Assembly (NCBI GenBank): GCA_039679645.1
Contig: JBDKUO010000025.1
Location: 1 to 64,000, forward strand
Direction: 5' to 3'
DNA: 64,000 nt
Source: Armatimonadota bacterium
Lineage (GTDB): Bacteria > Armatimonadota > UBA5829
The notes beneath the pieces are model-generated. The model was not told the origin of the DNA and made no database searches. It worked only from the letters and a program-made list of their open reading frames with translations. How positions within the stretch are numbered: position 1 is the stretch's first letter; each line of letters begins with the position of its first letter. A program made the position numbers and the translations under genes. Below, one piece after another: positions 130-55,825 of the stretch.

Positions 130-160
130 CAAAAAGGCGGCGATTCGGAGATCGCCGCCT
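130..160 (-). terminator. rho-independent terminator of dnaN
   Basis: On the minus strand a perfect 10-bp stem (AGGCGGCGAT/ATCGCCGCCT) with a 6-base loop is followed by TTTTT. It lies 42 bases past the dnaN stop, so it should end that transcript. Confidence 0.9.
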
Positions 161-179
161 ATCAATATTTCACAATCTA

Positions 180-9992: not shown

Positions 9993-11309
9993 CTATCTCT
10001 CCTTTTTCGCCTTTCGTATGATTAGCTTCAGAGGAGTGCCCTCATATGAATACTCCCGCCTTATCCTGTTTTCAAGATATCGCACATACGAAAAATGCGC
10101 AAGGTCAGGATTGTTGACGAAGATCACGATAGTCGGCGGCTTGACATCAGTCATGGTCGCATAGCGCACGCGAAAGTCCTTGCCTTTGCGCGAATACGGG
10201 TGCTCGTCTACAGCATCCTGCAATATTCTATTCAACTCGCCCGTGGAAATCCGCAGAGCGTGATTTGCAGCGGCGTCAATCGCCGTATCGACCGCATCGG
10301 TGATGCCGGTCCCTTTCAAAGCCGATGTAAAAACAACCGGAGCGTAGTCTAAAAATGGTATCTGCCTTTTCACATTTTCCGCAAACGCATGCATGTCCTC
10401 TTCCGAGACCAGGTCCCACTTGTTTACAACCACAACGCACGCCCTGCCCGCCTCATGGGCGAAACCCGCGACACGCTTGTCGCCGTCACGCAGACCGTCG
10501 AACGCGTCGATAACTACCATTGCCACATCCGCGCGTTCCATCGCTCGGACCGCGCGCAGGACTGTATAATACTCCACCGAGCCCTGGATCTTGCCAGATT
10601 TTCTGATCCCGGCGGTATCGATTAGCACCAGTTCGTCATCGCCGCGTCGAAGGACAGTATCGACAGCATCGCGCGTGGTGCCGGGTATATCCGAGACTAT
10701 TGCGCGCTTCTCTCCGAGAATGGCATTCACCAGCGATGACTTGCCGACATTCGGGCGGCCTATGATCGCTATTCTGATCGCGTCTTCAGGATATGCTGGT
10801 TCTTTTCCCTCATCAGGCAGTGCTCTGACGACTTCATCGAGCAGATCGGCAACAGACCTGCCGTTAAGAGATGAGACCGGGTGAATATCGCCCAGGCCCA
10901 GTGCATAAAACTCTGCGGCGTCCTGTTCGCGAGCGGTATTGTCGGCCTTATTGGCGGCCAGCAGCACCGGCTTGTGTGACCCTCGGAGCTGCTCGGCTAT
11001 GTCTTCGTCGCCAGGAGTGATACCGGTGGTGGTATCCACCATGAAAACTATTACGTCGGCCTCGTCCAGCGCGACCTGCGCTTGAATCGTTACCTCCGAC
11101 TTGAGCGGGTCGCTCTCGTTGAGCAGAATCCCGCCGGTGTCGATCATCACAAACTCGCGGCCGTTCCACTCTGCCTCGGCATAGATCCGATCACGAGTGA
11201 TCCCGGCTGTATCCTCGACAATTGCGATCCTGCGGCCCACTATCCTATTAAAGAGAGTCGATTTGCCTACATTCGGCCTACCGACTATTGCTACTAACGG
11301 TTTATCCAT
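9993..11309 (-). CDS. der: ribosome-assembly GTPase Der (EngA)
   Basis: Double GTPase needed for 50S subunit maturation. 438 aa. The first G domain starts GRPNVGKSTLFNR (residue 10), the second GRPNVGKSSLVNAI (about 183), each with DTAG and NKAD/NKWD motifs, followed by the C-terminal KH-like domain ending LIIRKAKKER. First gene of der-plsY-amrA, with a promoter at 11341-11369. ATG start with AAGGGG upstream. Confidence 0.97.
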   Translation of the reverse strand: MDKPLVAIVGRPNVGKSTLFNRIVGRRIAIVEDTAGITRDRIYAEAEWNGREFVMIDTGGILLNESDPLKSEVTIQAQVALDEADVIVFMVDTTTGITPGDEDIAEQLRGSHKPVLLAANKADNTAREQDAAEFYALGLGDIHPVSSLNGRSVADLLDEVVRALPDEGKEPAYPEDAIRIAIIGRPNVGKSSLVNAILGEKRAIVSDIPGTTRDAVDTVLRRGDDELVLIDTAGIRKSGKIQGSVEYYTVLRAVRAMERADVAMVVIDAFDGLRDGDKRVAGFAHEAGRACVVVVNKWDLVSEEDMHAFAENVKRQIPFLDYAPVVFTSALKGTGITDAVDTAIDAAANHALRISTGELNRILQDAVDEHPYSRKGKDFRVRYATMTDVKPPTIVIFVNNPDLAHFSYVRYLENRIRREYSYEGTPLKLIIRKAKKER

Positions 11310-11340
11310 GTGATTCGTTTTCCCCTTGTTTACGAATCAG

Positions 11341-11369
11341 ATGGTACCATAGAGCGGGGTTTGAGTCAA
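11341..11369 (-). promoter_or_regulatory. sigma-70 promoter of der-plsY-amrA
   Basis: Minus strand TTGACT (11369-11364), 17-bp spacer, TACCAT (11346-11341), about 32 bp before the der start. Confidence 0.7.
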
Positions 11370-11376
11370 ACAAGTA

Positions 11377-11423
11377 GTTTAGTATTTTGGGATTTTGTAT
11401 TGATTATCGGATTGTTGATTGCG
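11377..11423. repeat. ATTTNGT-type heptad array (copy 1)
   Basis: Seven-base units such as ATTTTGT and ATTGATT. The first about 29 bases recur almost exactly at 33508-33549, 22 kb away, so this one is also a dispersed repeat. Confidence 0.65.
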
Positions 11424-11425
11424 CG

Positions 11426-11510
11426 CGATATCTGATCGCGTGCGAAACGAAATCTCGGGATTTCAAATCCCCAAAGTTCTGTTTCGGGCGTCATCGGATA
11501 TAACGCCCGA
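11426..11510. repeat. palindrome cluster before the mutL 3' end
   Basis: Three hairpins: GCGATATCTGATCGC (11426-11440), GGGATTTCAAATCCC (11457-11471) and TCGGGCG...CGCCCGA (11484-11510). The first shares its core with 13477-13495 and 28353-28378. No gene is seen in 11370-11527. Confidence 0.7.
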
Positions 11511-11527
11511 TCAACATGTCGTTGACC

Positions 11528-11569
11528 GAAACTGTTGCCTGTGCCCTATTGCCTGTTACCTATATTCTA
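11528..11569. repeat. heptad array across the mutL stop
   Basis: Six in-phase 7-nt units (TTGCCTG, TGCCCTA, TTACCTA and relatives). The mutL stop codon at 11560-11562 and its last codons lie inside it. Confidence 0.7.
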
Positions 11570-13407
11570 TGAAACTTGCGGTCGAGTTCCCAGTTTGACA
11601 GACTGATGATTATCGGCCTGCCATGCGGGCAGACGAAGGGGTTGTCGGTCTGCATGAGGTCCTCGACGAGCCGCTCCATCTCAGGCATTGAGAGTTGCTC
11701 ACCAGCCTTGATCGCCATCTTGCAGGACGCAGTGATCAAGACCTGGTCCGGTCGAACGAGCAAGTGCTTGGATATACTCAAATCCACTAGTTCCTGGATC
11801 ATATCGCGCAGAGTGCTTTCGGCCTCTTCGAGTTTTACATTGGCGGGCGCGCCGCGCATAACAAATGTGTTCTGCCCAAAAGGTTCAAGCTCGTAGCCTG
11901 ATTTGTGGATATCCTCCAACCTCTGCTTGACGATTGCGCTCTCCTTTGCGCTCAGTGAGAGCGTAATTGGAACAACCAGACCCTGAATAGCGATCCCGCG
12001 CTCTTCACGTGACTTCATCATACGCTCAAAGAGCACCCGCTCATGCGCGACATGCTGGTCTATGATGAGTACGCCGTCGTCGCACTGTGCAAGTATGTAT
12101 AAGTTTCTAGCCTGACCTATTACTTTTACTCCATGGAGCGATACTGCACGCGCTGCATCAAAATCGGCCTCCGGTACAGGTGACTCTTCAATGGGGACGC
12201 CCTGCCCTTTTGTCCAGACGAATGGATCATCAGTTGCTGACTCGGATATGGCGACCTCACGTCTCTCTGCCAAAGCCTGCTTAAAAGCCTCCAGATCGGT
12301 CTCTGACGGCTCTATCAGGCTGCCCTGATGAGCCTGCCTGGGCATGAAATCGGGGATTGGGCGATGCTGCTGTGCCGAACCGGTGTTGGAAATCGTCGGA
12401 GCGGCTGCGCCCTCCATCAGAGCCTCGTTCACCGCTCTGTGAACCGCGCTGTGTATCTCATTTTCGCTGGAGAACTTAACTTCAGTCTTGGTGGGGTGGA
12501 CATTGACATCGACAAGCTCGGGCACAAGGTCAATAAAGAGCACGGCGACAGCAAAGCGTCCTGGCTGCAGCAGACCGCGATATGCCTGGTCGAGAGCGTG
12601 AGTAATCGTGCGGCTCTTTATCGGCCTGCCGTTTACAAAGAAGACCTGGTCGCGGCGGTTGATCTTGGTGAGCTGCGGGTTGGATACAAAACCCTCGACT
12701 TTCATCACGGTTGTCTCGAACTTGACCGGCGCAAGCTGCCTGGCGATATCTTTTCCCATAACCTGAGTGATGCTGTTCAGGCGAATGCCGGTCCCGGGTG
12801 AGAGCAAGACTTCGCGGCCGCCATGGATCAGCCTGAAATGGATAGACGGATACGCCATGGCAAACCAGCCGACAATCTCGGCTATGTGGGACAACTCTGT
12901 TTGAGAAGATTTCAAAAACTTTAACCGCGCCGGGGTATTAAAGAAGAGTTTCTTTACAGATATTGCGGTTCCTTGCGGTGCGCCGACTGATTCTAGATTG
13001 GTGATAGTCCCTGCCTCCACCTCCAGCCGGACGCCGTCTGACGATTCGCTCTTGGTAATCATTTCGATCACCGAAACTGAGGCAATACTCGGCAGGGCCT
13101 CACCGCGAAAACCCAGGGTGCTGATAGACTCCAAATCCTCCGCGTCCCTGATCTTGGAAGTGGCGTGGCGCTGAAGGGAGAGCACTGCATCGTCACGACC
13201 CATGCCGCAGCCGTTATCGACTATCTTGATAAGGTCCTTGCCACCTTCTTCAAGGGTGATGCTGATGGAAGATGCCCCTGCATCAATCGAATTCTCTACA
13301 AGCTCCTTAACCACCGAAGCCGGGCGTTCGACAACCTCGCCCGCCGCTATACGGTTTGCGGTGTGCTCGTCGAGGAGGGATATTTTGTTGTGCGTTACAC
13401 TTTCCAA
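11560..13407 (-). CDS. mutL: DNA mismatch repair protein MutL (endonuclease type)
   Basis: 615 aa. The GHKL ATPase N-terminus has ELVENSIDAGA, DNGCGM and GFRGEALPSI. The C-terminal dimer domain carries DQHVAHERVLFE near residue 450, with ASCK and CPHGRP near the end. These are the metal-binding motifs of nicking MutL proteins from bacteria without MutH, so it is expected to nick the new strand itself. The start is TTG at 13407; a GTG three codons later is an alternative. Order is mutS then mutL, co-oriented but separated by a 429-bp repeat-filled spacer, so they may not be one transcript. Confidence 0.96.
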   Translation of the reverse strand: MESVTHNKISLLDEHTANRIAAGEVVERPASVVKELVENSIDAGASSISITLEEGGKDLIKIVDNGCGMGRDDAVLSLQRHATSKIRDAEDLESISTLGFRGEALPSIASVSVIEMITKSESSDGVRLEVEAGTITNLESVGAPQGTAISVKKLFFNTPARLKFLKSSQTELSHIAEIVGWFAMAYPSIHFRLIHGGREVLLSPGTGIRLNSITQVMGKDIARQLAPVKFETTVMKVEGFVSNPQLTKINRRDQVFFVNGRPIKSRTITHALDQAYRGLLQPGRFAVAVLFIDLVPELVDVNVHPTKTEVKFSSENEIHSAVHRAVNEALMEGAAAPTISNTGSAQQHRPIPDFMPRQAHQGSLIEPSETDLEAFKQALAERREVAISESATDDPFVWTKGQGVPIEESPVPEADFDAARAVSLHGVKVIGQARNLYILAQCDDGVLIIDQHVAHERVLFERMMKSREERGIAIQGLVVPITLSLSAKESAIVKQRLEDIHKSGYELEPFGQNTFVMRGAPANVKLEEAESTLRDMIQELVDLSISKHLLVRPDQVLITASCKMAIKAGEQLSMPEMERLVEDLMQTDNPFVCPHGRPIIISLSNWELDRKFHRI

Positions 13408-13426
13408 AGATAATTCTTTCTTATCA

Positions 13427-13458
13427 CGAAAACACGAAAGGGTGAAAACACGAAATTA
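13427..13458. repeat. CGAAANNN octad array upstream of mutL
   Basis: Four in-phase 8-nt units: CGAAAACA, CGAAAGGG, TGAAAACA and CGAAATTA, 20 bases upstream of the mutL start. A matching array is placed the same way before mutS (16468-16499). Confidence 0.75.
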
Positions 13459-13476
13459 TTTTTCAAATGCCCATGT

Positions 13477-13635
13477 TCGGGCGCGATATCCGATCAGTTG
13501 TGTTGCAGATCGTCGGGGATTTTAATCCCCGACGCACGTATTAGGACTTTAGTCCTCGAACCGGCGTCTAGTTTATTGATAACTTGCCAAGGATTAAAAT
13601 CCTTGATATTTTTGTCCGGGATTCAAATCCCGGAC
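13477..13635. repeat. palindrome mosaic in the mutS-mutL spacer
   Basis: Starts with TCGGGCGCGATATC (shared with 28353). It then holds four perfect palindromes of one design with different arms: GTCGGGGATT/AATCCCCGAC at 13512-13533, AGGACT/AGTCCT at 13543-13556, CAAGGATT/AATCCTTG at 13588-13605 and GTCCGGGATT/AATCCCGGAC at 13614-13635. No coding sequence is convincing in 13408-13836. Confidence 0.75.
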
Positions 13636-13666
13636 CATCGGGGCACTTATTACAAATCAGAATTGT

Positions 13667-13747
13667 TAAAAGCAGACCCCTCACGTTCGGCGAGTTAATA
13701 CGCATGGCTTCGAGCGCCACGTCATATTTCGCCGCGTTCGGAATGAC
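13667..13747. repeat. diverged element ending TTCGGAATGAC (copy 2)
   Basis: Begins AAAGCAGACCCCTCACGTTCGG and ends GCGTTCGGAATGAC, so both ends resemble the 35-bp element at 8101-8135. It is expanded in the middle by about 40 bp. Confidence 0.55.
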
Positions 13748-13776
13748 ATATGCGGAACCACGTCATGATAATTCGG

Positions 13777-13860
13777 ACTTTCCACTTTCCACTTTCAGCT
13801 TTCCGCTCTGGACTCTTTACTCTCCACCCTCCACTCTCAACTCTTCACTATCTGCTTCTG
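13777..13860. repeat. long heptad array across the mutS stop
   Basis: Twelve consecutive 7-nt units in perfect phase, from ACTTTCC through ACTCTCC to ACTATCT. Nearly all follow RCTNTNN. It is the clearest array in the window. The mutS stop (13837-13839) and the last seven codons lie inside it. Confidence 0.9.
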
Positions 13861-16443
13861 CAGCTCATAGAGCTTATTCATAGCCTCAATCGGCGACATG
13901 GTAGCGATATCCAACTTTTCGATCTCATCAACTACCGGGTGCTTCTCACCCTCAAAAAGAGTAAGCTGAAGAGTCTCGCGCTTGGCGTTTACTTTTGCGC
14001 CTTTGCCGGTGGCTTTAGAGCCTGCACCATTGGATTCAAGGTCTTTGAGGATTTCTTTCGCCCGCTCGATTGCGTCATTTGGCAAGCCGGCAAGCCGGGC
14101 GACTTCTATACCGTAGCTCCTATCCGTGCCGCCTGGCATGATCTTGCGCAGCCATACTATCCGGTCTTTTTCCTCGCGCACTGCAATACGATAGTTCTTG
14201 ACCCCCTTGAGCTGTTTTTCAAGGTCATTGAGCTGGTGATAGTGCGTAGCAAAGAGTGTCTTTGCGCTGAGTTTGTTGATTTCTTCAGCAACTGCCCATG
14301 CAATCGAGAGGCCGTCGTAGGTGGATGTCCCCCGCCCTATCTCGTCAAGCACGATCAGAGACCGGCGTGTGGCATTATTTAAGATGTTGGCGGTCTCGTT
14401 CATTTCGACCATAAACGTCGATTGGCCACTGGCAAGCTCATCATGTGCTCCGACGCGTGTGAATATGCGGTCCACCACGCCGATTTGAGCCTCATCCGCC
14501 GGGACAAAGCTTCCCATCTGAGCCAGCAGCACGATCAGCGCGACCTGGCGCAGATACGTCGATTTGCCCGCCATGTTCGGGCCGGTGATGATCAATAGTT
14601 CATCCGAATCGCAGTTGACCAGCGTGTCGTTCGGGACAAAGCGCTCCTCTATGAAGTGCTCGACCACAGGATGGCGTCCATTTTCGATCCTGAGTTCCTC
14701 GCCGTCGGTAACGACCGGCTTTACGAAACCTTTTATAGAGGCTATCTCGGCAAGAGAGGCCAATACGTCTATCTCTGCCACTGCCCGCGCTACTTTTGCG
14801 ACCTTGAGAGCCTCATCTGCAACGGAGCTCCTCACCTCGCAAAACACTTTGTATTCGAGGTCGGCGGCTTTTTCGTCCGCACCCAGAACTTTCGCCTCCA
14901 TCTCCTTCAGACCCGGAGTAATGAAGCGCTCGGCGTTGGTGGTGGTCTGCTTGCGAATGTAGTCCTCGGGCACCAAGCTTAGATTGGGCTTGGTGACCTC
15001 CAGATAATAGCCGAAGACCGAATTATAGCCAACCTTGAGGTTCTTGATGCATGTGCGCTCGCGCTCGCCGGCCTCCAGGCTTGCTATCCAACTCTTGCCG
15101 TCTCGTGAGGCATGACGAAGCTCGTCCAGGTCGGTATTATAACCCTCGGCGATGATCCCGCCCTCACGGATTTGAATCGGAGGGTCGGGCACTATAGCTT
15201 TGTCGATCAGTTCAACCAGCGGGTCGAGAAACTCGATTGCCGACGAAAGAGTCTTTAAGCGCTCTGTCGATACATTTTGAAGGGCGGTTACGAGCCTCGG
15301 AAGCTGTTTAAGTGAGAGCGCCAGACCGACCAGATCGCGAGCATTAGCGCTCTCGGCAACTATTCGCGACATCAGCCTTTCGAGGTCCTGCACGCCGCCC
15401 AGTATCTCACGGACCTCGCCGCGCATCATTGCATCGTTATAAAGCTCCTCAACGCTATCCAGACGCCTGTTGATCTGTCGGATATCCAGCAATGGCTGAT
15501 CGAGCCACTTGCGCAGGGTGCGTCCGCCCATCGCCGTGCAGGTCTTATCTATAATCGAAAGGAGGCTTGCGCCGCGAGTCTCGGCGGACATAGAGTGTGT
15601 TAGCTCCAAATTTCGGCGTGCGGCCGCGTCCAGAACCATAAACCCGCTGGTCGAGTATGTGGACATAGTAGAGACGGACTGCAGCGCGTTGGCATTGGTC
15701 TGCTTGAGGTAATCCAGGACCATTGCAGCCGCTTCGAGGCCAGCAGTCATATCCTCAGCGCCGAAGCCGCGCAGTGAATCCGTGTGGAAGTGCTCGGTTA
15801 GCATCTCCTTGGCGGCTTTGCGATAGATAGAGTTGTCCTCGTATCGAGTGACTGCCGCGCCTGTCGTGCGGCGTATCGGATCGGAAAGGTCAAGCTCCAT
15901 CTCCTTTATCAGAACTTCGGCGGGAGAGAGCCTGCCAAGCTCCTCAATGAGCTTTTGAGAGCCGTGCTTGGCGTCGATCTCGGTCACGGCGAACTCGCCC
16001 GTGGAGATATCGACCACCGCCACTCCGTATATATCAGGCTCGCTGGCCAATGCGACCAGATAATTATTTGCCTTTGCATCAAGCATGCCGTCTTCGAGGA
16101 CTGTGCCGGGTGTGACTACACGGGTGACGCCGCGCTTAACTATCTTCTTGGTCTTTTTTGGGTCTTCGAGCTGATCGCATATCGCGACGCGATAGCCCTT
16201 GGATATAAGCCTGGCGACATATCTCTCGACGGCATGATGCGGAAAGCCGCACATAGGCACATCGACAGCATAGCCCTGGGACCGGCTGGTAAGCACGATC
16301 TCAAGCTCGCGGCTGGCAGTGGCGGCATCGTCCCCGAACATCTCATAGAAGTCGCCGAGGCGGAACATCAGTATAACATCAGGATATTGCTCCTTGATGG
16401 CCTGATACTGAGCCACCATAGGAGTTACTTTTTTTGCGTCCAA
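13837..16443 (-). CDS. mutS: DNA mismatch recognition protein MutS
   Basis: 868 aa, normal length. Mismatch-reading Phe-x-Glu is F32-Y-E34 in GDFYEMF. The ABC-type ATPase has Walker A GPNMAGKST near residue 620, then LDEIGRGTST and ATHYHQL. It binds mismatches and recruits MutL. The start is TTG at 16443, 7 nt after TGGAGAATC-type ribosome-binding bases. The last residues (KQIVKS) are encoded by the heptad array. Confidence 0.97.
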   Translation of the reverse strand: MDAKKVTPMVAQYQAIKEQYPDVILMFRLGDFYEMFGDDAATASRELEIVLTSRSQGYAVDVPMCGFPHHAVERYVARLISKGYRVAICDQLEDPKKTKKIVKRGVTRVVTPGTVLEDGMLDAKANNYLVALASEPDIYGVAVVDISTGEFAVTEIDAKHGSQKLIEELGRLSPAEVLIKEMELDLSDPIRRTTGAAVTRYEDNSIYRKAAKEMLTEHFHTDSLRGFGAEDMTAGLEAAAMVLDYLKQTNANALQSVSTMSTYSTSGFMVLDAAARRNLELTHSMSAETRGASLLSIIDKTCTAMGGRTLRKWLDQPLLDIRQINRRLDSVEELYNDAMMRGEVREILGGVQDLERLMSRIVAESANARDLVGLALSLKQLPRLVTALQNVSTERLKTLSSAIEFLDPLVELIDKAIVPDPPIQIREGGIIAEGYNTDLDELRHASRDGKSWIASLEAGERERTCIKNLKVGYNSVFGYYLEVTKPNLSLVPEDYIRKQTTTNAERFITPGLKEMEAKVLGADEKAADLEYKVFCEVRSSVADEALKVAKVARAVAEIDVLASLAEIASIKGFVKPVVTDGEELRIENGRHPVVEHFIEERFVPNDTLVNCDSDELLIITGPNMAGKSTYLRQVALIVLLAQMGSFVPADEAQIGVVDRIFTRVGAHDELASGQSTFMVEMNETANILNNATRRSLIVLDEIGRGTSTYDGLSIAWAVAEEINKLSAKTLFATHYHQLNDLEKQLKGVKNYRIAVREEKDRIVWLRKIMPGGTDRSYGIEVARLAGLPNDAIERAKEILKDLESNGAGSKATGKGAKVNAKRETLQLTLFEGEKHPVVDEIEKLDIATMSPIEAMNKLYELQKQIVKS

Positions 16444-16467
16444 TCAGATTCTCCAGAGATTTAATCG

Positions 16468-16499
16468 CGAAAACACGAAAGAGCGAAAGCACGAAATCT
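16468..16499. repeat. CGAAANNN octad array upstream of mutS
   Basis: Four in-phase 8-nt units: CGAAAACA, CGAAAGAG, CGAAAGCA and CGAAATCT, 25 bases upstream of the mutS start. It matches the array before mutL in unit, number and position. Confidence 0.75.
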
Positions 16500-16511
16500 T
16501 TTTTTGTTTAT

Positions 16512-16568
16512 CCCTCCAGGAATCTTTCCTGGAGGGTTTCTCCGGCCTCCAGGTAGGATACCTGGAGG
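16512..16568. repeat. two CCTCCAGG palindromes
   Basis: Hairpins at 16512-16536 (CCCTCCAGGAA/TTCCTGGAGGG) and 16546-16568 (CCTCCAGGTA/TACCTGGAGG). The same arms form the hairpins after clpC (38711) and tkt (57973), where they sit at terminator positions. Confidence 0.75.
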
Positions 16569-16585
16569 CATAAGACCGTTTGTTT

Positions 16586-16705
16586 GTCATCCGCACATAG
16601 ACGTTTTCTTAGAAAGATGAACGACAAGGAATCTGCTTTGAACCATAGTGATAACCATATCCGACGAGCTTCAAAAGCAGATTCCTCACATTCGTTCGGA
16701 ATGAC
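16586..16705. repeat. paired, inverted TTCGGAATGAC element (copy 3)
   Basis: The right part (16670-16705) is the 35-bp element. The left part (16586-16642) carries AAGGAATCTGCTTTGAA, the inverted core, and begins GTCATCC. The whole is a roughly 120-bp imperfect palindrome, like a miniature inverted-repeat element. No transposase is present. Confidence 0.75.
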
Positions 16706-16761
16706 AGGACTAAAGCTTTGACGTGAAATCCAACCACATTGCTGATCGACAATATCGATAC

Positions 16762-16793
16762 ACGATCAGACGATCAAACCATCAAACGATATC
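16762..16793. repeat. ACGATCAA octad array across the miaB stop
   Basis: Four in-phase 8-nt units ACGATCAG, ACGATCAA, ACCATCAA and ACGATATC. The miaB stop (16782-16784) lies inside. Confidence 0.65.
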
Positions 16794-18116
16794 CCCAACA
16801 TATCCGTACAAATGCCCTTCGGTTGCTCTAACAATCACCAGCTTGCCGACAAGGCTTGCATCACCCTTGAAGTTCACTGTCTTGTTCTGGCGGGTGAGGC
16901 CTGTGACTCGCGTGCGGTCCTTCTGACTCACTCCCTCTACCAAAACCTCGTATACATTGCCGACCTGACTCTCGTTGATCTCACAGGTGATGCGATTTTG
17001 AATGTCTATAAGGCGGCCAAGACGCTCATTTTTGACTTTCTTCGTGAGCTGGCCTTCGAGCTTTTCGGCAGCAGTGTTTGGGATCACGTTATAGGCGAAC
17101 ATAAACGCCGCATCGAACCGGATATCCTCAGCCAGGCGCAGAGTGTTTGCGAACTGCTCGTCTGTCTCACCAGGAAAGCCTACCAGGAAATCGGTGGTAA
17201 TTGCAATATCCGGCACGGCATTTCTCAGAGCAGCGACGCGCTCACGAAAGTGCTCTGATGTATATTTGCGGTTCATCCGCCGCAGGACCTCGTCATCGCC
17301 GGACTGGACGGCAAGGTGAATGTGCTCACAGACATTGGGCAGGTCATGCATGGCCTCTATCAGGCGGTCCGAAAGGTCTTTTGGATGAGATGTGGTGAAC
17401 CTGATCCTCTCGATCCCGGGAACGGCGCTCACTGCACGCAGCAGATCGGCAAAATCGACATGCTCGTCAAGTGTAGCCCCATATGAGTTGACATTCTGGC
17501 CAAGGAGAGTGATTTCTTTGCGCCCGTTTGATGTCAGTCTTTCGACCTCGGCGACGACATCCGCCAGATGACGGCTTCTCTCACGACCACGAACATACGG
17601 CACCACACAGTATGCGCAGAAGTTGTTGCAGCCATACATCACAGGCACAAAGCTCTTCAGAGCCTGCCCTGCCCTGTCTACTCTGGGAGGAACCGTCAGA
17701 GCATCGGCTTTAGTCTCAGGCAGATCGAGGGCATGTTTGAACTTGCGATTGCTTTGAACCTCTTGAATCAGGCTGGGGATCTGCCAAATATTAGCAGTGC
17801 CAATTACGAGATCGAGATATGGCCGGCCTTTTTTGAGCTTTTCGCCCTCGCGCTGGGCCATGCATCCGCACACCCCGATGATCATATCCGGCTTATCGGC
17901 TTTGATCTCGCGAAGTATGCCGAGTTTGCTTTTGGCCTTCTGTTCAGGTTTTTCGCGGACGCTGCATGTGACGAGCATCGCTATATCGGCCTCCTGCTCA
18001 TCTTGAGTCGGCGAATAGCCCATGCTCATGAGAAGGTTTGCTATCTGCTCGGCGTCGTCCTCGTTCATCTGGCAGCCCCAGGTGAATATGATAAATTTGC
18101 GGTCAGTGACGGTCAT
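16782..18116 (-). CDS. miaB: tRNA-2-methylthio-N6-isopentenyladenosine synthase MiaB
   Basis: 444 aa methylthiotransferase that adds the 2-methylthio group to A37 of tRNAs reading UNN codons. The N-terminal UPF0004 domain carries cluster cysteines in TWGCQMNEDD, VTCSVRE and VCGCMAQRE. The radical SAM motif is CNNFCAYC near residue 160. A C-terminal TRAM domain follows. The N-terminal pattern favours MiaB over MtaB or RimO. ATG start after GGAGCAAA. Confidence 0.94.
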   Translation of the reverse strand: MTVTDRKFIIFTWGCQMNEDDAEQIANLLMSMGYSPTQDEQEADIAMLVTCSVREKPEQKAKSKLGILREIKADKPDMIIGVCGCMAQREGEKLKKGRPYLDLVIGTANIWQIPSLIQEVQSNRKFKHALDLPETKADALTVPPRVDRAGQALKSFVPVMYGCNNFCAYCVVPYVRGRERSRHLADVVAEVERLTSNGRKEITLLGQNVNSYGATLDEHVDFADLLRAVSAVPGIERIRFTTSHPKDLSDRLIEAMHDLPNVCEHIHLAVQSGDDEVLRRMNRKYTSEHFRERVAALRNAVPDIAITTDFLVGFPGETDEQFANTLRLAEDIRFDAAFMFAYNVIPNTAAEKLEGQLTKKVKNERLGRLIDIQNRITCEINESQVGNVYEVLVEGVSQKDRTRVTGLTRQNKTVNFKGDASLVGKLVIVRATEGHLYGYVGDIV

Positions 18117-23466: not shown

Positions 23467-23539
23467 GCGTTATGAGTTATGGGTTATGAGTTGTGAGTTA
23501 TGGGTTACCTGATTGTCTGGGTTACGAGTTTTAAGTTAC
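23467..23539. repeat. GAGTTAT heptad array upstream of gpsA
   Basis: Six perfect-phase 7-nt units (GCGTTAT, GAGTTAT, GGGTTAT, GAGTTGT, GAGTTAT, GGGTTAC). A 10-nt break is followed by three more. It sits 9 bases before the gpsA start, in its untranslated or promoter region. Confidence 0.88.
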
Positions 23540-23545
23540 ACGATG

Positions 23546-23595
23546 GTCGGGGGTGTTCCTGCCTCCGACTAATCTTCGCGGGCATTCTTGCCCGC
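23546..23595. repeat. two palindromes before the alr 3' end
   Basis: GTCGGGGG...CCTCCGAC (23546-23569) and GCGGGCA/TGCCCGC (23578-23595). Both have the central TTC-T pattern seen in other palindromes of this window. The second could act as a weak terminator for alr. Confidence 0.65.
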
Positions 23596-23615
23596 TTACC
23601 GCATAGAAAAAGGAG

Positions 23616-28273: not shown

Positions 28274-28288
28274 TTATTTACTCCTTAA

Positions 28289-28323
28289 AGTGGAGAGCGG
28301 AGAGTTGAGAGTGGAGAGCCCGG
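28289..28323. repeat. AGTGGAG heptad array upstream of ubiB
   Basis: Five in-phase 7-nt units (AGTGGAG, AGCGGAG, AGTTGAG, AGTGGAG, AGCCCGG). The unit is close to that at 51524-51565 and to the complement of the mutS array. Confidence 0.78.
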
Positions 28324-28352
28324 AACAGACACCACTCAGTTATACCCAATGA

Positions 28353-28378
28353 TCGGGCGCGATATCTGATCGCGACCG
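28353..28378. repeat. TCGGGCGCGATATC palindrome
   Basis: Shares TCGGGCGCGATATCNGATC with 13477-13495, and a shorter core with 11426-11440. Confidence 0.65.
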
Positions 28379-29089: not shown

Positions 29090-29194
29090 CACTATATTGC
29101 TCAAATGAAGGGCTTCGGATACTCATATCCCTCGATAATCTACATTAATCAGGGAATATTCACTCTCGAAATGTATCAAGCGCTGAATTTATTT

Positions 29195-29217
29195 CGGGCC
29201 GGAAAGCATCCGGCCCG
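29195..29217 (-). terminator. hairpin after the phasin-like gene
   Basis: CGGGCCGG/CCGGCCCG stem, 21 bases past the stop. No T tract follows, so it may be a stability element rather than a full terminator. Confidence 0.6.
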
Positions 29218-29237
29218 ATCAACATCATCAACCAATA

Positions 29238-38680: not shown

Positions 38681-38710
38681 ATTGACTATCACAATAACAA
38701 TCACAACAAT

Positions 38711-38735
38711 CCCTCCTGGTATCTTACCTGGAGGG
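38711..38735 (+). terminator. terminator-like hairpin after clpC
   Basis: CCCTCCTGGTA/TACCTGGAGGG stem followed by ATTGTTT. It has the same arm sequence as palindromes at 16512-16568 and 57973-58006. Confidence 0.75.
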
Positions 38736-38793
38736 ATTGTTTATGTATGTACTGTGTTATGATTTCCGAATCCTGAACCTACTGCACAAACAA

Positions 38794-41794: not shown

Positions 41795-41820
41795 TATGGG
41801 AAGCCAAGCGGCTTCCCATA
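41795..41820 (-). terminator. terminator of the L25/Ctc gene
   Basis: TATGGGAAGCC/GGCTTCCCATA stem with a 4-base loop. On the minus strand ATTTTAATT follows. It may also close the GAF gene on the plus strand. Confidence 0.85.
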
Positions 41821-50293: not shown

Positions 50294-50344
50294 ATTACTT
50301 TCCTCTTTCTTTACTTCACACCATTAAACCGCGTTCAATGGCGT

Positions 50345-51511
50345 TTATTGCTTATGCACCAGGTCGTATTGCCTTACGACCTCATTGGTTATCTGTGAGT
50401 CTTCCGACAGTTTGCTGATCTCGCTGAGCGCTCCTGCCACACCACGTTCTTTAACGATTTGCTGAACCTTTGGGGCTGTAGGGTCGGTCGGCAAGTCGAA
50501 ATGAAGCGCTGCAGCGATCGCTCTGCACATATGCTCAGGGAACATGCCGCACTCCTCAACAAGTTTCGCGCCGCCCACAAGACGGTCATTTGGACCGAGT
50601 TTACGCATAGGATCGCCCCCTACCCTTGCGACCTGGTCGCCCAGCGCTGCATTGGCGAACCGGCTGAGCAGATCGTCTACATGTGCCTGGTGAGCCTTTG
50701 GGTCGAGATTGTGTTTCTTTACCAGCGCTCTGCCCGTCTCTTCCATAGCGGCTCTGACCTCTTTGGCTATCTGCTCATCTCCCATAGCTTCCCAAACAAA
50801 TTTATGGCCCTTGAGATAGCCCAGGTAGGCGGCTGTCGCATGACCGGCGTTATGCGCATAAAGCTTGCGGTCCACAAAACTCTGGAAATTGTCCGCAGGC
50901 TCTATGTTCGCTATATCAAACCACTCGCCCTTGATGGCTGCTTTGGATATTGGCAGATGCTTATAAGGCTCGACTATGACCAGCAGCGGATCTTCACTCT
51001 TCTGCTCTGCGCTCATAACCGGAACCATCCGCCCGACCACGCTCTCAACAAAGCCTATCTTATCCTCAAGATAGGCATGATACTCCTCGGGCAGAGCCTT
51101 TTTGACCTCACCCTTAAGGAACGGACCCATATTCTGCAGGTTTTCGCAGATGATTATGTTGATCGGTTTATCGATACCCGCTTCGGCCCGCGCCTTAACG
51201 CCGGCTGCTATAGTCGGGGCAATCTTAGGTAGGACATTTACACCTACTGCAGTGCACATAAGGTCGGCTGTCTTTATCTCTTCTGCCACTGCAGGGATAT
51301 CCAGCCCGCTCACTGCCCGGACATTGTTGATAGTTACTGTCCACGGCTGATCACATGCCATTCTGATCGGGTATGACCTGCGCTCATTTATAAGATCGAC
51401 CAAGTCCTTCACGACATCTACGAACACTACCTCGAAGCCGGACTCGCTGAATAATTGCCCTGCAAAACCTCGCCCGATATTGCCGGCTCCGAACTGAATT
51501 GCCTTTCTCAC
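50345..51511 (-). CDS. mtlD: mannitol-1-phosphate 5-dehydrogenase
   Basis: 388 aa. The NAD-binding opening is FGAGNIGRGF. KGEWFDIANIEPADNFQSF and ALVKKHNLDPKAH match MtlD of the mannitol dehydrogenase family. It interconverts mannitol 1-phosphate and fructose 6-phosphate. No mannitol PTS is nearby, so the source of its substrate is unclear. GTG start after GGGAGAG. Confidence 0.92.
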   Translation of the reverse strand: MRKAIQFGAGNIGRGFAGQLFSESGFEVVFVDVVKDLVDLINERRSYPIRMACDQPWTVTINNVRAVSGLDIPAVAEEIKTADLMCTAVGVNVLPKIAPTIAAGVKARAEAGIDKPINIIICENLQNMGPFLKGEVKKALPEEYHAYLEDKIGFVESVVGRMVPVMSAEQKSEDPLLVIVEPYKHLPISKAAIKGEWFDIANIEPADNFQSFVDRKLYAHNAGHATAAYLGYLKGHKFVWEAMGDEQIAKEVRAAMEETGRALVKKHNLDPKAHQAHVDDLLSRFANAALGDQVARVGGDPMRKLGPNDRLVGGAKLVEECGMFPEHMCRAIAAALHFDLPTDPTAPKVQQIVKERGVAGALSEISKLSEDSQITNEVVRQYDLVHKQ

Positions 51512-51523
51512 AATACTCTCCCA

Positions 51524-51565
51524 AGATAGCTGAGAGTGGAGAGTGGAGAGCTAAGAGTCCTGACT
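51524..51565. repeat. GGAGAGT heptad array upstream of mtlD
   Basis: Six in-phase 7-nt units (AGATAGC, TGAGAGT, GGAGAGT, GGAGAGC, TAAGAGT, CCTGACT), 13 bases before the mtlD start. Confidence 0.75.
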
Positions 51566-51595
51566 CGTAACCGCTCAGTCAGCTGTTTTTTTGAT

Positions 51596-51716
51596 GGTCC
51601 AGGATTTGAATCCTGGACCTATGTATGGGGGATATACATCCCCTCTTAGTCCTGCATCTTTCTACATTGACTAAGGGACTAAAGTTCCGGTAACAGGCGT
51701 CTGGGATTCAAATCCC
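51596..51716. repeat. palindrome mosaic in the cdd-mtlD spacer
   Basis: Four palindromes: GGTCCAGGATT/AATCCTGGACC at 51596-51619, GGGGGAT/ATCCCCC at 51627-51644, GGGACT/AGTTCC at 51675-51688 and GGGATT/AATCCC at 51703-51716. The last is an inverted near-copy of 13508-13533. No gene is seen in 51566-51729. Confidence 0.75.
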
Positions 51717-51729
51717 CGACGATCGACTT

Positions 51730-52149
51730 TCAATCCTCACATTTATTTAGATGAAACGGCCTGGGCAGGTAATCCGCCAGATCGAAGATATCATAATCCA
51801 ATCTCACATTACCCGATGCAATGACAACAGGATCATTCTCATCACTAAACTCGGCGATCACCTGCAAGCACGCTCCGCATGGGCGCGCAATCTCAGGGCC
51901 GTCCGTCACTATCGCGACCGCTTTTATATGTCTCTCGCCTTCTGACACAGCTTTCAGGATGGCGATGCGCTCCGCACAGACAGTCAGACCGTATGACGCA
52001 TTCTCGACATTGCAGCCCGCATATACTTTGCCCGAATCGCACAAGACGGCAGCGCCGACTTTGAAACCAGAATACGGCGCATATGCGTTCTCACGAGCTT
52101 CTCGCGCCGCTGTTAATAATCCTCGTATGTCTTCCCGGGAAACTGGCAT
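51730..52149 (-). CDS. cdd: cytidine deaminase
   Basis: 139 aa, the small homotetrameric type. Zinc site CNVENASYG, CAERIAI (catalytic Glu) and PCGACLQ. It salvages cytidine and deoxycytidine to uridine forms. ATG at 52149 after AAGAGG, one base after the stop of the metallophosphatase gene, so it is translated with it. Confidence 0.95.
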   Translation of the reverse strand: MPVSREDIRGLLTAAREARENAYAPYSGFKVGAAVLCDSGKVYAGCNVENASYGLTVCAERIAILKAVSEGERHIKAVAIVTDGPEIARPCGACLQVIAEFSDENDPVVIASGNVRLDYDIFDLADYLPRPFHLNKCED

Positions 52150-52150
52150 T

Positions 52151-53449
52151 TTACCTCTTCCCCAAACTATGCGAAGTATCCGAATTGATATCTTTCTTTT
52201 TATCGATAAAAAACTCATCTATTATGGCGCCGTCAGTCTTTAACGCTGTGATTGTGAGCTTAGCGCCGGCCACTTCTACGACCAGATAGTCCGGCTGATC
52301 CGTCGGATTATAAAAGAACTTGCTCCAGTCTCTTTTACATACTTGATTGTAATATTTAGTGCCGCTGCGCCCGGCGCTGTAATATATAGTCCCCTGCGAC
52401 GGCTTTGACATATAGGCCTCATTCTTAATCGGAAATGTGCGCCCTACTGAATGATCGTGTCCGTTGAATACGACATCGACATGATATCGGTCATATACAG
52501 GACAAAATGCATTCCGAATGTCTTTGTTCTCTCGGCCGACCATAAGCGAGTAAGCGCTTTTGTGCAGGAAGACAATCTTCCAGGGCGATTTGGATGCGGC
52601 AAGGTCGGCGGCAAGCCATTTCTTCTGCGGAGTAAGTATGTCGCCATACTGCTTTTCTTCACTCTGCTGGCTATCGAGAACCACAAAATGGACGGGGCCA
52701 TAATCGTACGAATAAGCCTGGTCTTTCAGGTCCGACGGGCCATTTTGCGGCAGATAAAACTGGGCTTTCCAGTATGCAGGTCTTCTCGTATCCAAAGAAC
52801 CGCGCGTTTCATGGTTGCCTACCACAGGCATTATCGGGATTGTGTCGATAACCCCGGCTGCAGCGCTAAACCATGCATTCCAGTGCGCACCGCTCTGACC
52901 CGTGTCGACGAGGTCTCCCATATTTACAAAGAACCTGGCGTCAGGATTTGCGCTATAGGCATTGTGCAGAGTCTTGCTCCAGACTCCATACGGAAAATTG
53001 CCGTCGGCAACACTCTGGCTGTCACCAAAGACAAGAAATTTGAAACTCTTGGAACTCGGGTTAGCGGTTGTAAATGAATGGTTGGCGCTCCAATGGCCTT
53101 GATTTCCGACTCGATACAGATACTTGGTGTTGGGTTCGAGACCTTTAAGTGTGGCTGTAAAGAGATGGGTCGCCTGAAGGTCGGTAGTGAAGTCCGCTGA
53201 GTGAGAGGTTGCATACTTGGCATTGGCAGTAAACGCTGCTGACTTTTGATATTTCTGATACTCAACTGAGCCTGTTGCTGTAGTATTATCGGTCCGCCAT
53301 GTGACTGTCATCGTGGTTGCCGGGTTGTCTGCCCAGGTCAGTGTGACATGATCGGGCGATGCGCTCGCGCTGCCTGCTGCCAGACAGGCGGTCGGACTAG
53401 CGATAACATACAACAGAATCAATATCGCCAGAACGAATTTGTGTTTCAT
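52151..53449 (-). CDS. secreted purple-acid-phosphatase-like metallophosphatase
   Basis: 432 aa. Signal peptide at residues 1-25. Fibronectin-like N-terminal domain of purple acid phosphatases (HVTLTWADNPATTMTVTWR, PNTKYLYRVG). Metallophosphatase core FGDSQS, NMGDLVDTG, VVGNHETRG, VFLHKSAYS and NGHDHSVGRT. It hydrolyses phosphate esters outside the cell or in the periplasm; the exact substrate is unknown. It is co-transcribed with cdd, which may reflect nucleoside salvage (inference). Confidence 0.88.
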   Translation of the reverse strand: MKHKFVLAILILLYVIASPTACLAAGSASASPDHVTLTWADNPATTMTVTWRTDNTTATGSVEYQKYQKSAAFTANAKYATSHSADFTTDLQATHLFTATLKGLEPNTKYLYRVGNQGHWSANHSFTTANPSSKSFKFLVFGDSQSVADGNFPYGVWSKTLHNAYSANPDARFFVNMGDLVDTGQSGAHWNAWFSAAAGVIDTIPIMPVVGNHETRGSLDTRRPAYWKAQFYLPQNGPSDLKDQAYSYDYGPVHFVVLDSQQSEEKQYGDILTPQKKWLAADLAASKSPWKIVFLHKSAYSLMVGRENKDIRNAFCPVYDRYHVDVVFNGHDHSVGRTFPIKNEAYMSKPSQGTIYYSAGRSGTKYYNQVCKRDWSKFFYNPTDQPDYLVVEVAGAKLTITALKTDGAIIDEFFIDKKKDINSDTSHSLGKR

Positions 53450-53458
53450 AATAATAAA

Positions 53459-55825
53459 CTACCTTTTCATCTCTGCAATCGTGACCCCGGAACCGCCCTC
53501 TTCCTGCTCGCCGAGACGGTATGAGCCCACTCCCTTATGAGTCCGCAGATACTCCCAGACGGCCTGGCGCATCTGGCCGGTCCCTTTGCCGTGCACTATG
53601 CGAACGGACATCGCTCCCGCCGCCAGCGCATCGTCAATATATTTGTCCAGCTCGATCAGAGCAGGCTCGACACGCATGCCCCGCAGATGAATCTCGGAAT
53701 GAAAATCCCGTGCCTTTTGCAGACTGATACTTTCCTGTGATCTCTGCGGACGAATCTCTTGCACGGACTGCGAGCGCGGCTTGCGCAGTGACGATAGCGG
53801 GACACTTACCCGCATAGCGCCGATCATAACTACGACCTTACCGGCTTCCGGCGGCTCCACTATCTCACCGTCCTGGTTTACTCCGGCTATTCCTACGCGG
53901 GTCCCGGGCGATAGAGCCGTGCCATTATCCAGTTTCTCTTCTTTTTGCTCGGCAACTTCTACGCGTTTGACTGTCTGCTCATCGAGCTGGTCTATAAGTT
54001 TCTCGGCTTTCTTCTTGAGATCCTGGGCGCGTTTTGTATCCGCCTTTTGCGCTGCGAGCTGTTCGAGAGTGTTTTCGAGTTTTCTGGAATAGGCTTCGAT
54101 AATGCTTTCGGCGCGCTGCTTGGTCTTGGTCTCGACGCGGCTCTTTATGCTCTCTATTCCGCCGAGCTGCTGCTCATAGCGCTGACGCAGAAGTTCGGCA
54201 TCACGGGCATGGCGCTCCGCGGCTTTTCTCTGCTCTGCTGCCGCCTTGTGGCTCTCCTCAATCTGGCGGATAAGCTCTTCTGATGCCTGCTCTTGATTGC
54301 CGATGCTCTCTTTTGCGGCATCTATTATCAACTTATCCAGGCCAAGACGCCCGGCAATAGCAAACGCATTGCTGCTGCCAGGAATACCTATCATCAGCCT
54401 GTATGTGGGCCGCAGACTTTCAGGGTCGAACTCGACACATGCGTTTTCAACACCATCGCGCAGATACGCATATTCCTTAAGCTCGCCGTAGTGAGTCGTC
54501 GCTATAACACGCGAGCCTTTGTTAAGCAGATAATCGACAATAGACTTTGCAAGCGCCGCACCTTCGGCTGGGTCAGTCCCCGCACCTACTTCGTCCATCA
54601 GCACCAGCGTATTTCTATTGGATCCGCCTGTGATGCGCACGATATTGTTCATGTGCGAAGAAAAGGTCGACAAGGACTGCTCGATGCTCTGCTCGTCACC
54701 AATATCTGCGTAAACATTTTCAAAGATCGCAAGCTCTGTGCCCGGTTCAGCCGGAACATGCATTCCGCTGGCAGCCATAAGGGTAAGCAGGCCGACAGTC
54801 TTCAAAGCAACCGTCTTACCGCCCGTGTTGGGGCCGGTAATGAGCAGCGCATTGAAATCTTTGCCCAGGCTCATATCAATAGGGACAACCTCGCCCTCAA
54901 GCAGGGGGTGGCGCGCCGACATCAGATCGATCATGCCGGTGTCATTCAAAAATGGTGAAGTCGCGCGCTGTTCGATACTGAGTTTAGCTCGGGCTGCGAT
55001 GGCGTCGATCAGGCCGACTACATTTAGCGTGGCTAGAATTCGACTGCCATACTCGCCAACACGAGATGTAAGCCCTGCAAGTACTTTTTCGACCTCTTCG
55101 CGCTCTTTCACGACAAGCTGCTTGCGTTTGTTTCCGAGTTCGACTACAGCCGCCGGTTCTATGAAGAGTGTAGCGCCGGATGCGCTGGCATCGTGCACTA
55201 TTCCTGGGAACTGGCCCCTGTGGTCGGATTTGATCGGGATGCAATAGCGGTCACTGCGGATTGTTATGACCGGCTCTTGAATAATTGTCTTATAAGCGCT
55301 GCCCTGGAGATATGAGTTCATCTTCTCAGTAAGGCGTGACTGGACCGTCCGAAGCTCTGAGCGTACACGACCAAGAGAGGCGCTCGCGGAGTCGAGCACA
55401 TCCCCGCTCTGCGCAATTGAGCCGGAGATAGCGTTCTCAATCGGCACGAAGAACTCGATCTCACTGCCGAGCCCGCCCATGATAGGGTATTTCTCACCCT
55501 GTCTGCGCAGAAATGTGCCGAGGCGCTTGGTGCCCTGCAGAGTGTTGAGAATCGCGAGCAGGTCTGAAGGCTGCAACAGCGCTTCGACAGACGCTCGCTC
55601 GACATAGTTCCGCACATCTTCGATCCCGCCGAATGGTATATTGCCCTCGTATTGAAGTATTGCGCGGGCTTCACTCGTCTCCTGCTGCTTGCGCCTGGCA
55701 ATATCCAGATGAGTGGTCGGGTACGAAAGGCTGGCGACCTCCCGCCCCAGGGCGCAGGCCGCCTGGCTCTGCAGTTTCGTTATTATTTTTTCGAACTCAA
55801 GAACTTTGAGTGTATGCTGCTCCAT
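53459..55825 (-). CDS. mutS2: MutS2 ATPase/endonuclease
   Basis: 788 aa. Clamp and core helices, then Walker A GPNTGGKTVALKT, LMDEVGAGTDP and ATTHYGELK. A long coiled region and a C-terminal Smr nuclease domain follow (LRGMRVEPALIELDKY, IVHGKGTGQMRQAVW). It acts in ribosome-collision rescue or in blocking recombination, not in mismatch repair. ATG at 55825; an in-frame start at 55882 lacks family similarity. Confidence 0.95.
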   Translation of the reverse strand: MEQHTLKVLEFEKIITKLQSQAACALGREVASLSYPTTHLDIARRKQQETSEARAILQYEGNIPFGGIEDVRNYVERASVEALLQPSDLLAILNTLQGTKRLGTFLRRQGEKYPIMGGLGSEIEFFVPIENAISGSIAQSGDVLDSASASLGRVRSELRTVQSRLTEKMNSYLQGSAYKTIIQEPVITIRSDRYCIPIKSDHRGQFPGIVHDASASGATLFIEPAAVVELGNKRKQLVVKEREEVEKVLAGLTSRVGEYGSRILATLNVVGLIDAIAARAKLSIEQRATSPFLNDTGMIDLMSARHPLLEGEVVPIDMSLGKDFNALLITGPNTGGKTVALKTVGLLTLMAASGMHVPAEPGTELAIFENVYADIGDEQSIEQSLSTFSSHMNNIVRITGGSNRNTLVLMDEVGAGTDPAEGAALAKSIVDYLLNKGSRVIATTHYGELKEYAYLRDGVENACVEFDPESLRPTYRLMIGIPGSSNAFAIAGRLGLDKLIIDAAKESIGNQEQASEELIRQIEESHKAAAEQRKAAERHARDAELLRQRYEQQLGGIESIKSRVETKTKQRAESIIEAYSRKLENTLEQLAAQKADTKRAQDLKKKAEKLIDQLDEQTVKRVEVAEQKEEKLDNGTALSPGTRVGIAGVNQDGEIVEPPEAGKVVVMIGAMRVSVPLSSLRKPRSQSVQEIRPQRSQESISLQKARDFHSEIHLRGMRVEPALIELDKYIDDALAAGAMSVRIVHGKGTGQMRQAVWEYLRTHKGVGSYRLGEQEEGGSGVTIAEMKR

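Follow-up and report, generated by a model that had tools for sequence, protein, structure and literature searches.

The palindromes clustered in the spacers of this Armatimonadota genome are very probably non-autonomous REP/BIME-like elements spread by REP-associated tyrosine transposases (RAYTs), and we hold this general reading with more confidence than the assignment of any particular RAYT as the mover. The window, by which we mean the whole stretch of 64,000 nucleotides that was analysed, lies on contig C25 of a genome (G000) of 3.41 Mb that is 99.7% complete, and the spacer under study is flanked by mutL (11560–13407, minus strand) and mutS (13837–16443, minus strand). In favour of the reading we counted the covariation of the stems, the presence of elements and RAYTs in the same 5 of 15 genomes, the matches of a half-unit model at RAYT flanks, the inverted repeats at those flanks, the correlation between RAYT and REP similarity and the lack of target duplications. 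Against it we counted that no RAYT goes with the exact family, that the GTAG foot is missing, that 2 of 12 loci failed the flank test, that the genomes are akin, and that the homology in two of them (G002 and G005) is one of layout only. The reading would supply an origin for mixed spacer palindromes in a little-studied lineage.

Hairpins in the spacers of the window

Perfect hairpins with loops of 2–5 bases were counted in the 36 spacers of the window (7,324 bases), which hold 11, 8 and 7 of them at arms of at least 7, 8 and 9 bp, compared with means of 1.48, 0.43 and 0.10 and maxima of 6, 3 and 2 in 200 shuffles of the same spacers; the coding DNA of the window (56,739 bases) holds 10, 3 and 0. 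This statistic refers to the window only, because most of the other stretches scanned were picked for their palindrome content and densities there are biased. A sequence-only reading of the window had proposed that its view be dropped if spacers showed no excess over base composition, and since 8 hairpins against 0.43 at arms of at least 8 bp is far above the shuffles, that refutation fails. Moreover, GGNNTTNNAANNCC occurs 97 times genome-wide and its reversed control 36 times.

Hairpin clusters are present in all six spacers which that reading had named, and 51698–51724 is indeed an inverted near-copy of 13508–13534, as it had noticed. The list was incomplete, with further members in the window at 139–165, 28349–28378 and 38709–38737, and the hairpins, described as perfect, are imperfect at 11426–11510, 23546–23570 and 51698–51721. 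A single design with different arms had been proposed, and this holds at the level of layout but not of sequence, where several families are mixed: the GGGATT/GGACT design is found in two of the six spacers (13508–13639 and 51593–51724), with a partial likeness at 11457–11471, and the rest belong to other families. The unit is also larger than one palindrome, comprising two hairpins and a GAT foot, and usually two such units stand inverted. Features are collected in Table 1, in which R1 is a covariance model made from six full copies and R2 is a half-unit model built only from units of this genome.

Table 1. Elements and hairpins located in the window, with the evidence for each
Feature	Position	Strand	Evidence
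Full two-unit element, GGGATT family, mutL-mutS spacer	13508–13639	-	R1 123.4 bits; R1 training row, found by construction
Unit A of first element: GAT foot, hairpin 1, linker, hairpin 2	13586–13639	-	R2 68.5 bits; training row
Unit B of first element, inverted relative to unit A; second hairpin GGACT-type	13508–13560	+	R2 65.1 bits; training row
Second full element, adjoining mtlD	51593–51724	+	R1 126.1 bits; training row
Unit A of second element	51593–51646	+	R2 69.3 bits; training row
Unit B of second element	51671–51724	-	R2 61.2 bits; training row
Truncated REP, family of RAYT own_C66	13475–13495	+	21 of 21 bases same as RAYT flank
Inverted pair of own_C66-type two-hairpin units	11413–11516	.	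Alignment score 28 vs shuffle maximum 12; fold z -5.17
Another own_C66-type hairpin, absent from sequence-only reading	28349–28378	+	96% over 25–26 bases, both RAYT flanks
Two-hairpin unit, family flanking G004:C3 RAYT	23541–23597	+	85% over 54 bases, E 7e-7; R2 23.8 bits
Hairpin, family flanking G004:C19 RAYT	139–165	-	92.6% over 27 bases, E 4.3e-5
Two CTCCAGG hairpins, separate dispersed family	16510–16569	.	Cognate RAYT not found
CTCCAGG hairpin copy with one mismatch	38709–38737	-	96.6% over 29 bases

Members of the CTCCAGG family were counted 59 times in this genome, 27 times in G003, 14 times in G004 and once in G001, with none in the other 11 of 15 genomes. The pair at 16510–16569 matches a CTCCAGG hairpin that merely sits upstream of the RAYT on contig C60, and the CTCCAGG hairpins form a separate family. 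Around the GGGATT element, a CTCCAGG hairpin lies within 250 bp at 3 of 36 places and the GATATCNGATC core at 4 of 36, a modest clustering with other families.

Several further features were seen in spacers. Two 7-bp hairpins (AGTCGGCCTTCGCCGACT and AGTGTCCGAAGGGACACT) lie at 9–52 of the window, and similar ones occur at L087:14425 and, in L142, upstream of the C60 RAYT. Two more long perfect hairpins, with arms of 10 and 11 bp, lie in the window spacers at 29194–29218 and 41795–41820, outside the families found. Stuttering word-like stretches (GAGAGTGGAGAGTGG, CTGAAAGTGGAAAGT, ATGAGTTATGGGTTATGAG, TTGCCTGTTACCTAT) adjoin many palindromes, at 51532–51551, 13780–13800, 28280–28330 and 23470–23540 of the window and in other spacers too, and a dispersed phrase like TCATTCCGAGCGAATGCGAGGAATCTGC recurs in several spacers of the genomes of L104 and L106 (miaB-mutS and mutS-flanking spacers). 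Fragments of tRNA T-arms were considered and set aside: a GGGGTTCGAATCCC match at C32:15865 resembles a tRNA arm by eye, and the GGGATT family is not compatible with such an arm. A plasmid- or virus-borne origin was likewise dismissed, with no match in plasmids and none for GTCCGGGATTNNAATCCCGGAC in viral contigs.

Architecture, covariation and turnover of the GGGATT element

Lining up the surroundings of GGGATTnnAATCCC revealed the layout of the GGGATT element, which begins with GAT, continues with a first hairpin of about 11 bp, a linker of 7–9 nt and a second hairpin of 7–8 bp, and after about 20–30 variable bases is completed by an inverse unit with other arms that ends in ATC, so that two units usually face each other within an element of about 130 bp. 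R1 found 38 distinct places in the scanned stretches of this genome, two of which (L085:3830 and L259) belong to another family by eye and were excluded both from the alignment A3 and from the 36 places whose placement is given below; because R1 recognises an element on each of its two strands, its raw counts are doubled. Among the 38 places are 13 two-unit copies with a best R1 score of at least 88 bits, six of them training rows. A short variant was also seen in L086 (G000:C10), where two near-identical 86-bp copies with changed arms (1426–1511 and 2044–2129) lie 618 bp apart.

A3 consists of 41 half-units from 38 places, aligned by sequence alone after degenerate half-units and the second 86-bp copy of L086 had been removed by hand, and 39 of the 41 start with GAT. 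In this alignment 15 of the 19 base pairs changed on both sides, the covariation was 0.331 compared with 0.140 in shuffles, and 91.2% of cells were paired compared with 80.0% in shuffles; sliding the partners by 1–3 columns lowered pairing to 25–61%. None of 500 shuffles equalled the real alignment in two-sided pairs, pairing or covariation, and 35 of 500 did so in the number of further pair types. Covariation is in part the difference between A and B units, hence the cells are not independent events, and pairs 13–20, 40–53 and 43–50 vary beyond that difference. In the second hairpin the two outermost pairs are frequently open (in 27 and 18 of the 41 half-units). Folded as single-stranded DNA, both window elements do far better than their shuffles, whichever strand is taken (z -5.1 to -6.5). 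The two-sided changes and the pairing support selection on structure, one of two origins that the sequence-only reading had offered for complementary arms. Covariation alone cannot separate selection from correction, and matching arms might have arisen by mutation, through template switching within quasi-palindromes during replication. We consider this improbable, since it leaves dispersal, the GAT foot, the linker and the RAYT link unexplained, and one-sided and broken cells exist.

Conserved structure would also be expected of elements that act at the level of RNA, as intrinsic terminators or mRNA-stabilising hairpins selected in transcripts. Placement could be read in the same direction: of the 36 places, 7 fall inside short ORF calls and one at an edge, and the 28 that could be classed comprise 19 unidirectional, 6 convergent and 3 divergent spacers. 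Other spacers at these loci are, however, placed much alike (99 unidirectional, 31 convergent and 32 divergent). Terminator-like sites between 11300 and 16800 are at the chance level (5 compared with 4.9 in shuffles), two of the five being the palindromes at 13588–13605 and 11475–11454, and the region 50300–53500 has 6 such sites against 2.7, none of them inside the element. No Rfam family was matched except a tRNA, and orthologous spacers of sister species do without the element. We thus rejected rho-independent terminators, on the chance-level sites in 11300–16800 and their lack in the element at 51593–51724, and known RNA families, on the Rfam result, and regard selection at the RNA level as an unlikely explanation on the whole. 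Covarying spacer hairpins need not be functional RNAs.

The orthologous sites point to turnover of the elements. The distance from mtlD to its upstream neighbour, which we take to be a cytidine-deaminase-like protein, is 221 bp with the element here and 41 bp without it in G004 and G003. The mutS-mutL gap is 432 bp here compared with 18, 42, 54 and 36 bp in G002, G006, G010 and G011; the corresponding spacers of G003 and G004 stand outside this comparison because the flanking genes there are not adjacent to mutS. Across the mtlD and mutS-mutL loci R2 found the element in this genome only, besides weak matches (E 0.005–0.03) in L105 and L265. Dispersed inverted two-unit copies, together with empty orthologous sites in sister species, bear out the other suggested origin, copying as inverted units.

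The mode of dispersal was considered as well. With ends that are inverted copies of GATSGTC, a length of about 130 bp and a dispersed occurrence, the element has the look of a classical MITE, whose terminal inverted repeats (GATSGTCSGGGATT) would be moved by a DDE transposase. But none of the 13 two-unit copies has a target-site duplication of at least 2 bp, on which ground we rejected this identity; moreover, single units exist, the terminal repeats are themselves hairpins, and homologous units flank Y1 RAYT genes, leaving a MITE with very little probability. The lack of target duplication fits enzymes of the IS200/IS605 type.

RAYT genes, their repeats and their distribution

This genome carries four intact RAYT-type genes for tyrosine transposases (on contigs C66, C60, C21 and C26). 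In L148 (G000:C68, about 1440–1900) only the first 25–28 residues of a RAYT are left, most of the gene having apparently been deleted; GGGTGGCGATTTCCGAATCCC-type repeats lie nearby, and the whole looks like a decaying RAYT-repeat unit. Inverted hairpin repeats above the shuffle maximum flank 10 of 12 RAYT loci from this and related genomes, each locus with its own sequence; in this automatic test the loci own_C21 and G003:C93 stayed below threshold. All 8 RAYTs of profile A1 match NF047646 (REP-associated tyrosine transposase; score 108 against a cut-off of 80, shown for member 1 only) and Y1_Tnp, their best PDB match is the TnpAREP structure 4er8, and H60, H62, Y131, N135 and P136 of the HxH and Y---NP motifs are invariant. 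Over 10 pairs, RAYT similarity and REP similarity are correlated (r 0.73, 12 of 10,000 permutations).

R2 matches both flanks, in inverted orientation, of the RAYTs G002:C174 (L175; 29.0 and 29.0 bits) and G004:C3 (L180; 30.4 and 24.5 bits), which share about 50% identity (49–52%); at other RAYT loci the one match was marginal (L176, E 0.15), and the remaining 13 of 16 gave nothing at E≤1. Aligned over their full lengths, the G002:C174 repeat and the window unit at 51593 show gaps of a single base in the loops and reach a score of 19, compared with a shuffle maximum of 12. Judged from these matches, the GGGATT element is related to the repeats that the clade of these two RAYTs serves. In none of the genomes searched did we find a RAYT with the exact GGGATT family at its flanks, and the own four intact RAYTs are flanked by other repeats, none by a GGGATT unit; the best own match to the G002:C174 RAYT is that of C60 (50% identity), which another repeat flanks. 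Searches of this genome with PF01797, the RAYT alignment or the G002:C174 protein did not reveal a hidden cognate; RAYT remnants are present at C3, C69 and C68. Hence the mobilisation of the GGGATT family by a RAYT is something we infer, as is the strand that the enzyme would cut. The element appears to be orphaned in this genome or served in trans, in that its cognate RAYT may have been lost or another may act on it; in pseudomonads and stenotrophomonads, deviating numbers of REPs have been attributed to the loss of RAYTs (PMC3686654).

Elements and RAYTs share their distribution. R1 matches occur in 5 of the 15 genomes of the family and A1 (E≤1e-8) matches in the same five, and neither was found in the other 10, the same-genus G001 included; a looser Pfam RAYT model also matches G010, which has no R1 matches. 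Because four of the five genomes share a genus, this co-occurrence is not phylogenetically independent. R2 gave at least 87 matches in this genome, at least 26 in G003, 27 in G004, 23 in G002 and 41 in G005, one each in G001 and G021 and none in the other 8; where a first look gave more than 150 candidates, 150 were scored, so that the R1 and R2 counts are minimum values there. In a search of 291 genomes across the phylum, several matches to the GATSGTCSGGGATT pattern or GGGATT unit were found only in G000, G003 and G004, with one place in G016 and two in G027. Elements in G002 and G005 have the same layout and other loops, and their R1 and R2 matches are homologous in layout, not the same sequence. 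In G005 (L152, L156, L158, L162 and L166) we saw about 20 copies of an element of about 131 bp with this layout and ATCYG loops.

In the mechanism that we propose, a RAYT, that is, a single-strand HuH/tyrosine transposase (TnpAREP), probably recognises the folded strand of a unit, and by cutting and rejoining it would copy units or facing pairs into spacers. The arms would be free to differ as long as the two sides of a stem change together and the loop and layout stay the same.

The tips of the two hairpins in a unit are alike: TATCTGA is found twice in the unit of own C66 and CTCCGAA twice in that of G004:C19, and ATTCTTG accompanies ATTCCTG in that of G004:C3; own C60 is without this likeness (0.27). 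Loop similarity was 0.60 within units and 0.35 between them (1 of 50,000 permutations with 10 units and 2 of 720 with 6), in a test that was made after the pattern had been noticed and on units that are partly related. In one group that has been studied, TnpAREPs depend on individual bases of the loop (PMC8266576), which makes a loop code that is read twice plausible. We tentatively suggest, with the balance somewhat against it, that a clade of RAYTs reads the same loop sequence twice, as a two-hairpin code in which each subunit of a RAYT dimer grips one hairpin, and that new orthogonal RAYT/REP pairs could form within one genus by joint change of the tips. With several RAYT/repeat pairs in a few related genomes, RAYT recognition is testable by loop swaps.

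Comparison with described REP systems

The origin of such palindromes had been called poorly understood, which is too pessimistic: the link to RAYTs seen here is known for REPs elsewhere (PMC3733652, PMC6006769). As in the REPs, BIMEs and REPINs of TnpAREP/RAYT described for E. coli, Pseudomonas and Stenotrophomonas (PMC3116915, PMC3686654, PMC8266576), which are short extragenic palindromes in many copies, occur in inverted pairs, show compensatory stem changes and come in several classes within one genome, each class linked to a RAYT, we found extragenic palindromes in many copies, inverted unit pairs, and a homologous repeat flanking a RAYT of a sister species. A GTAG or GT[AG]G foot and the same repeat flanking a RAYT of the same genome were not found. 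Hence the element is not a canonical GTAG REP: it differs from described REPs in a GAT foot instead of GTAG, in two hairpins per unit and, usually, in one loop sequence common to both, and its cognate RAYT was not found in the same genome.

Two further kinds of repeat invite comparison. CGTC-tagged REPs are likewise short palindromes and mostly head-to-head dimers, and unit B here starts with GATCGTC; but their tag is unpaired (PMC3733652), whereas CGTC here lies inside the stem of the first hairpin, paired with GACG, and only in some units, and this identity was ruled out for want of an unpaired CGTC tag. TIRtrons with double palindromic TIRs, which have a GGGGWSAS motif and were compared by their description only (PMC3733652), are alike in that a tyrosine transposase gene lies between inverted repeats that are long and in part self-complementary. 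A two-hairpin layout of a RAYT repeat was not found described in the open-access literature on RAYTs, which is no proof of its absence.

The nearest described case is TnpAREP subclass 2.6, or RAYT group 5, with its 'atypical secondary structures', whose protein motifs fit only in part. RAYTs of this subclass, described mainly in Bacteroidetes, are some 180 aa long, carry W and Y-H-NP motifs, and are flanked by non-GTAG hairpins of which the genome holds copies elsewhere (PMC6006769). Its HuH consensus NH[LIV]H fits none of the 8 RAYTs here and strict YIH[QN]NP fits 2 of the 8, both read by eye from the alignment. Non-GTAG hairpins are also seen at most RAYT loci here, and with the present elements the repertoire of REPs would gain a GAT-footed two-hairpin layout.
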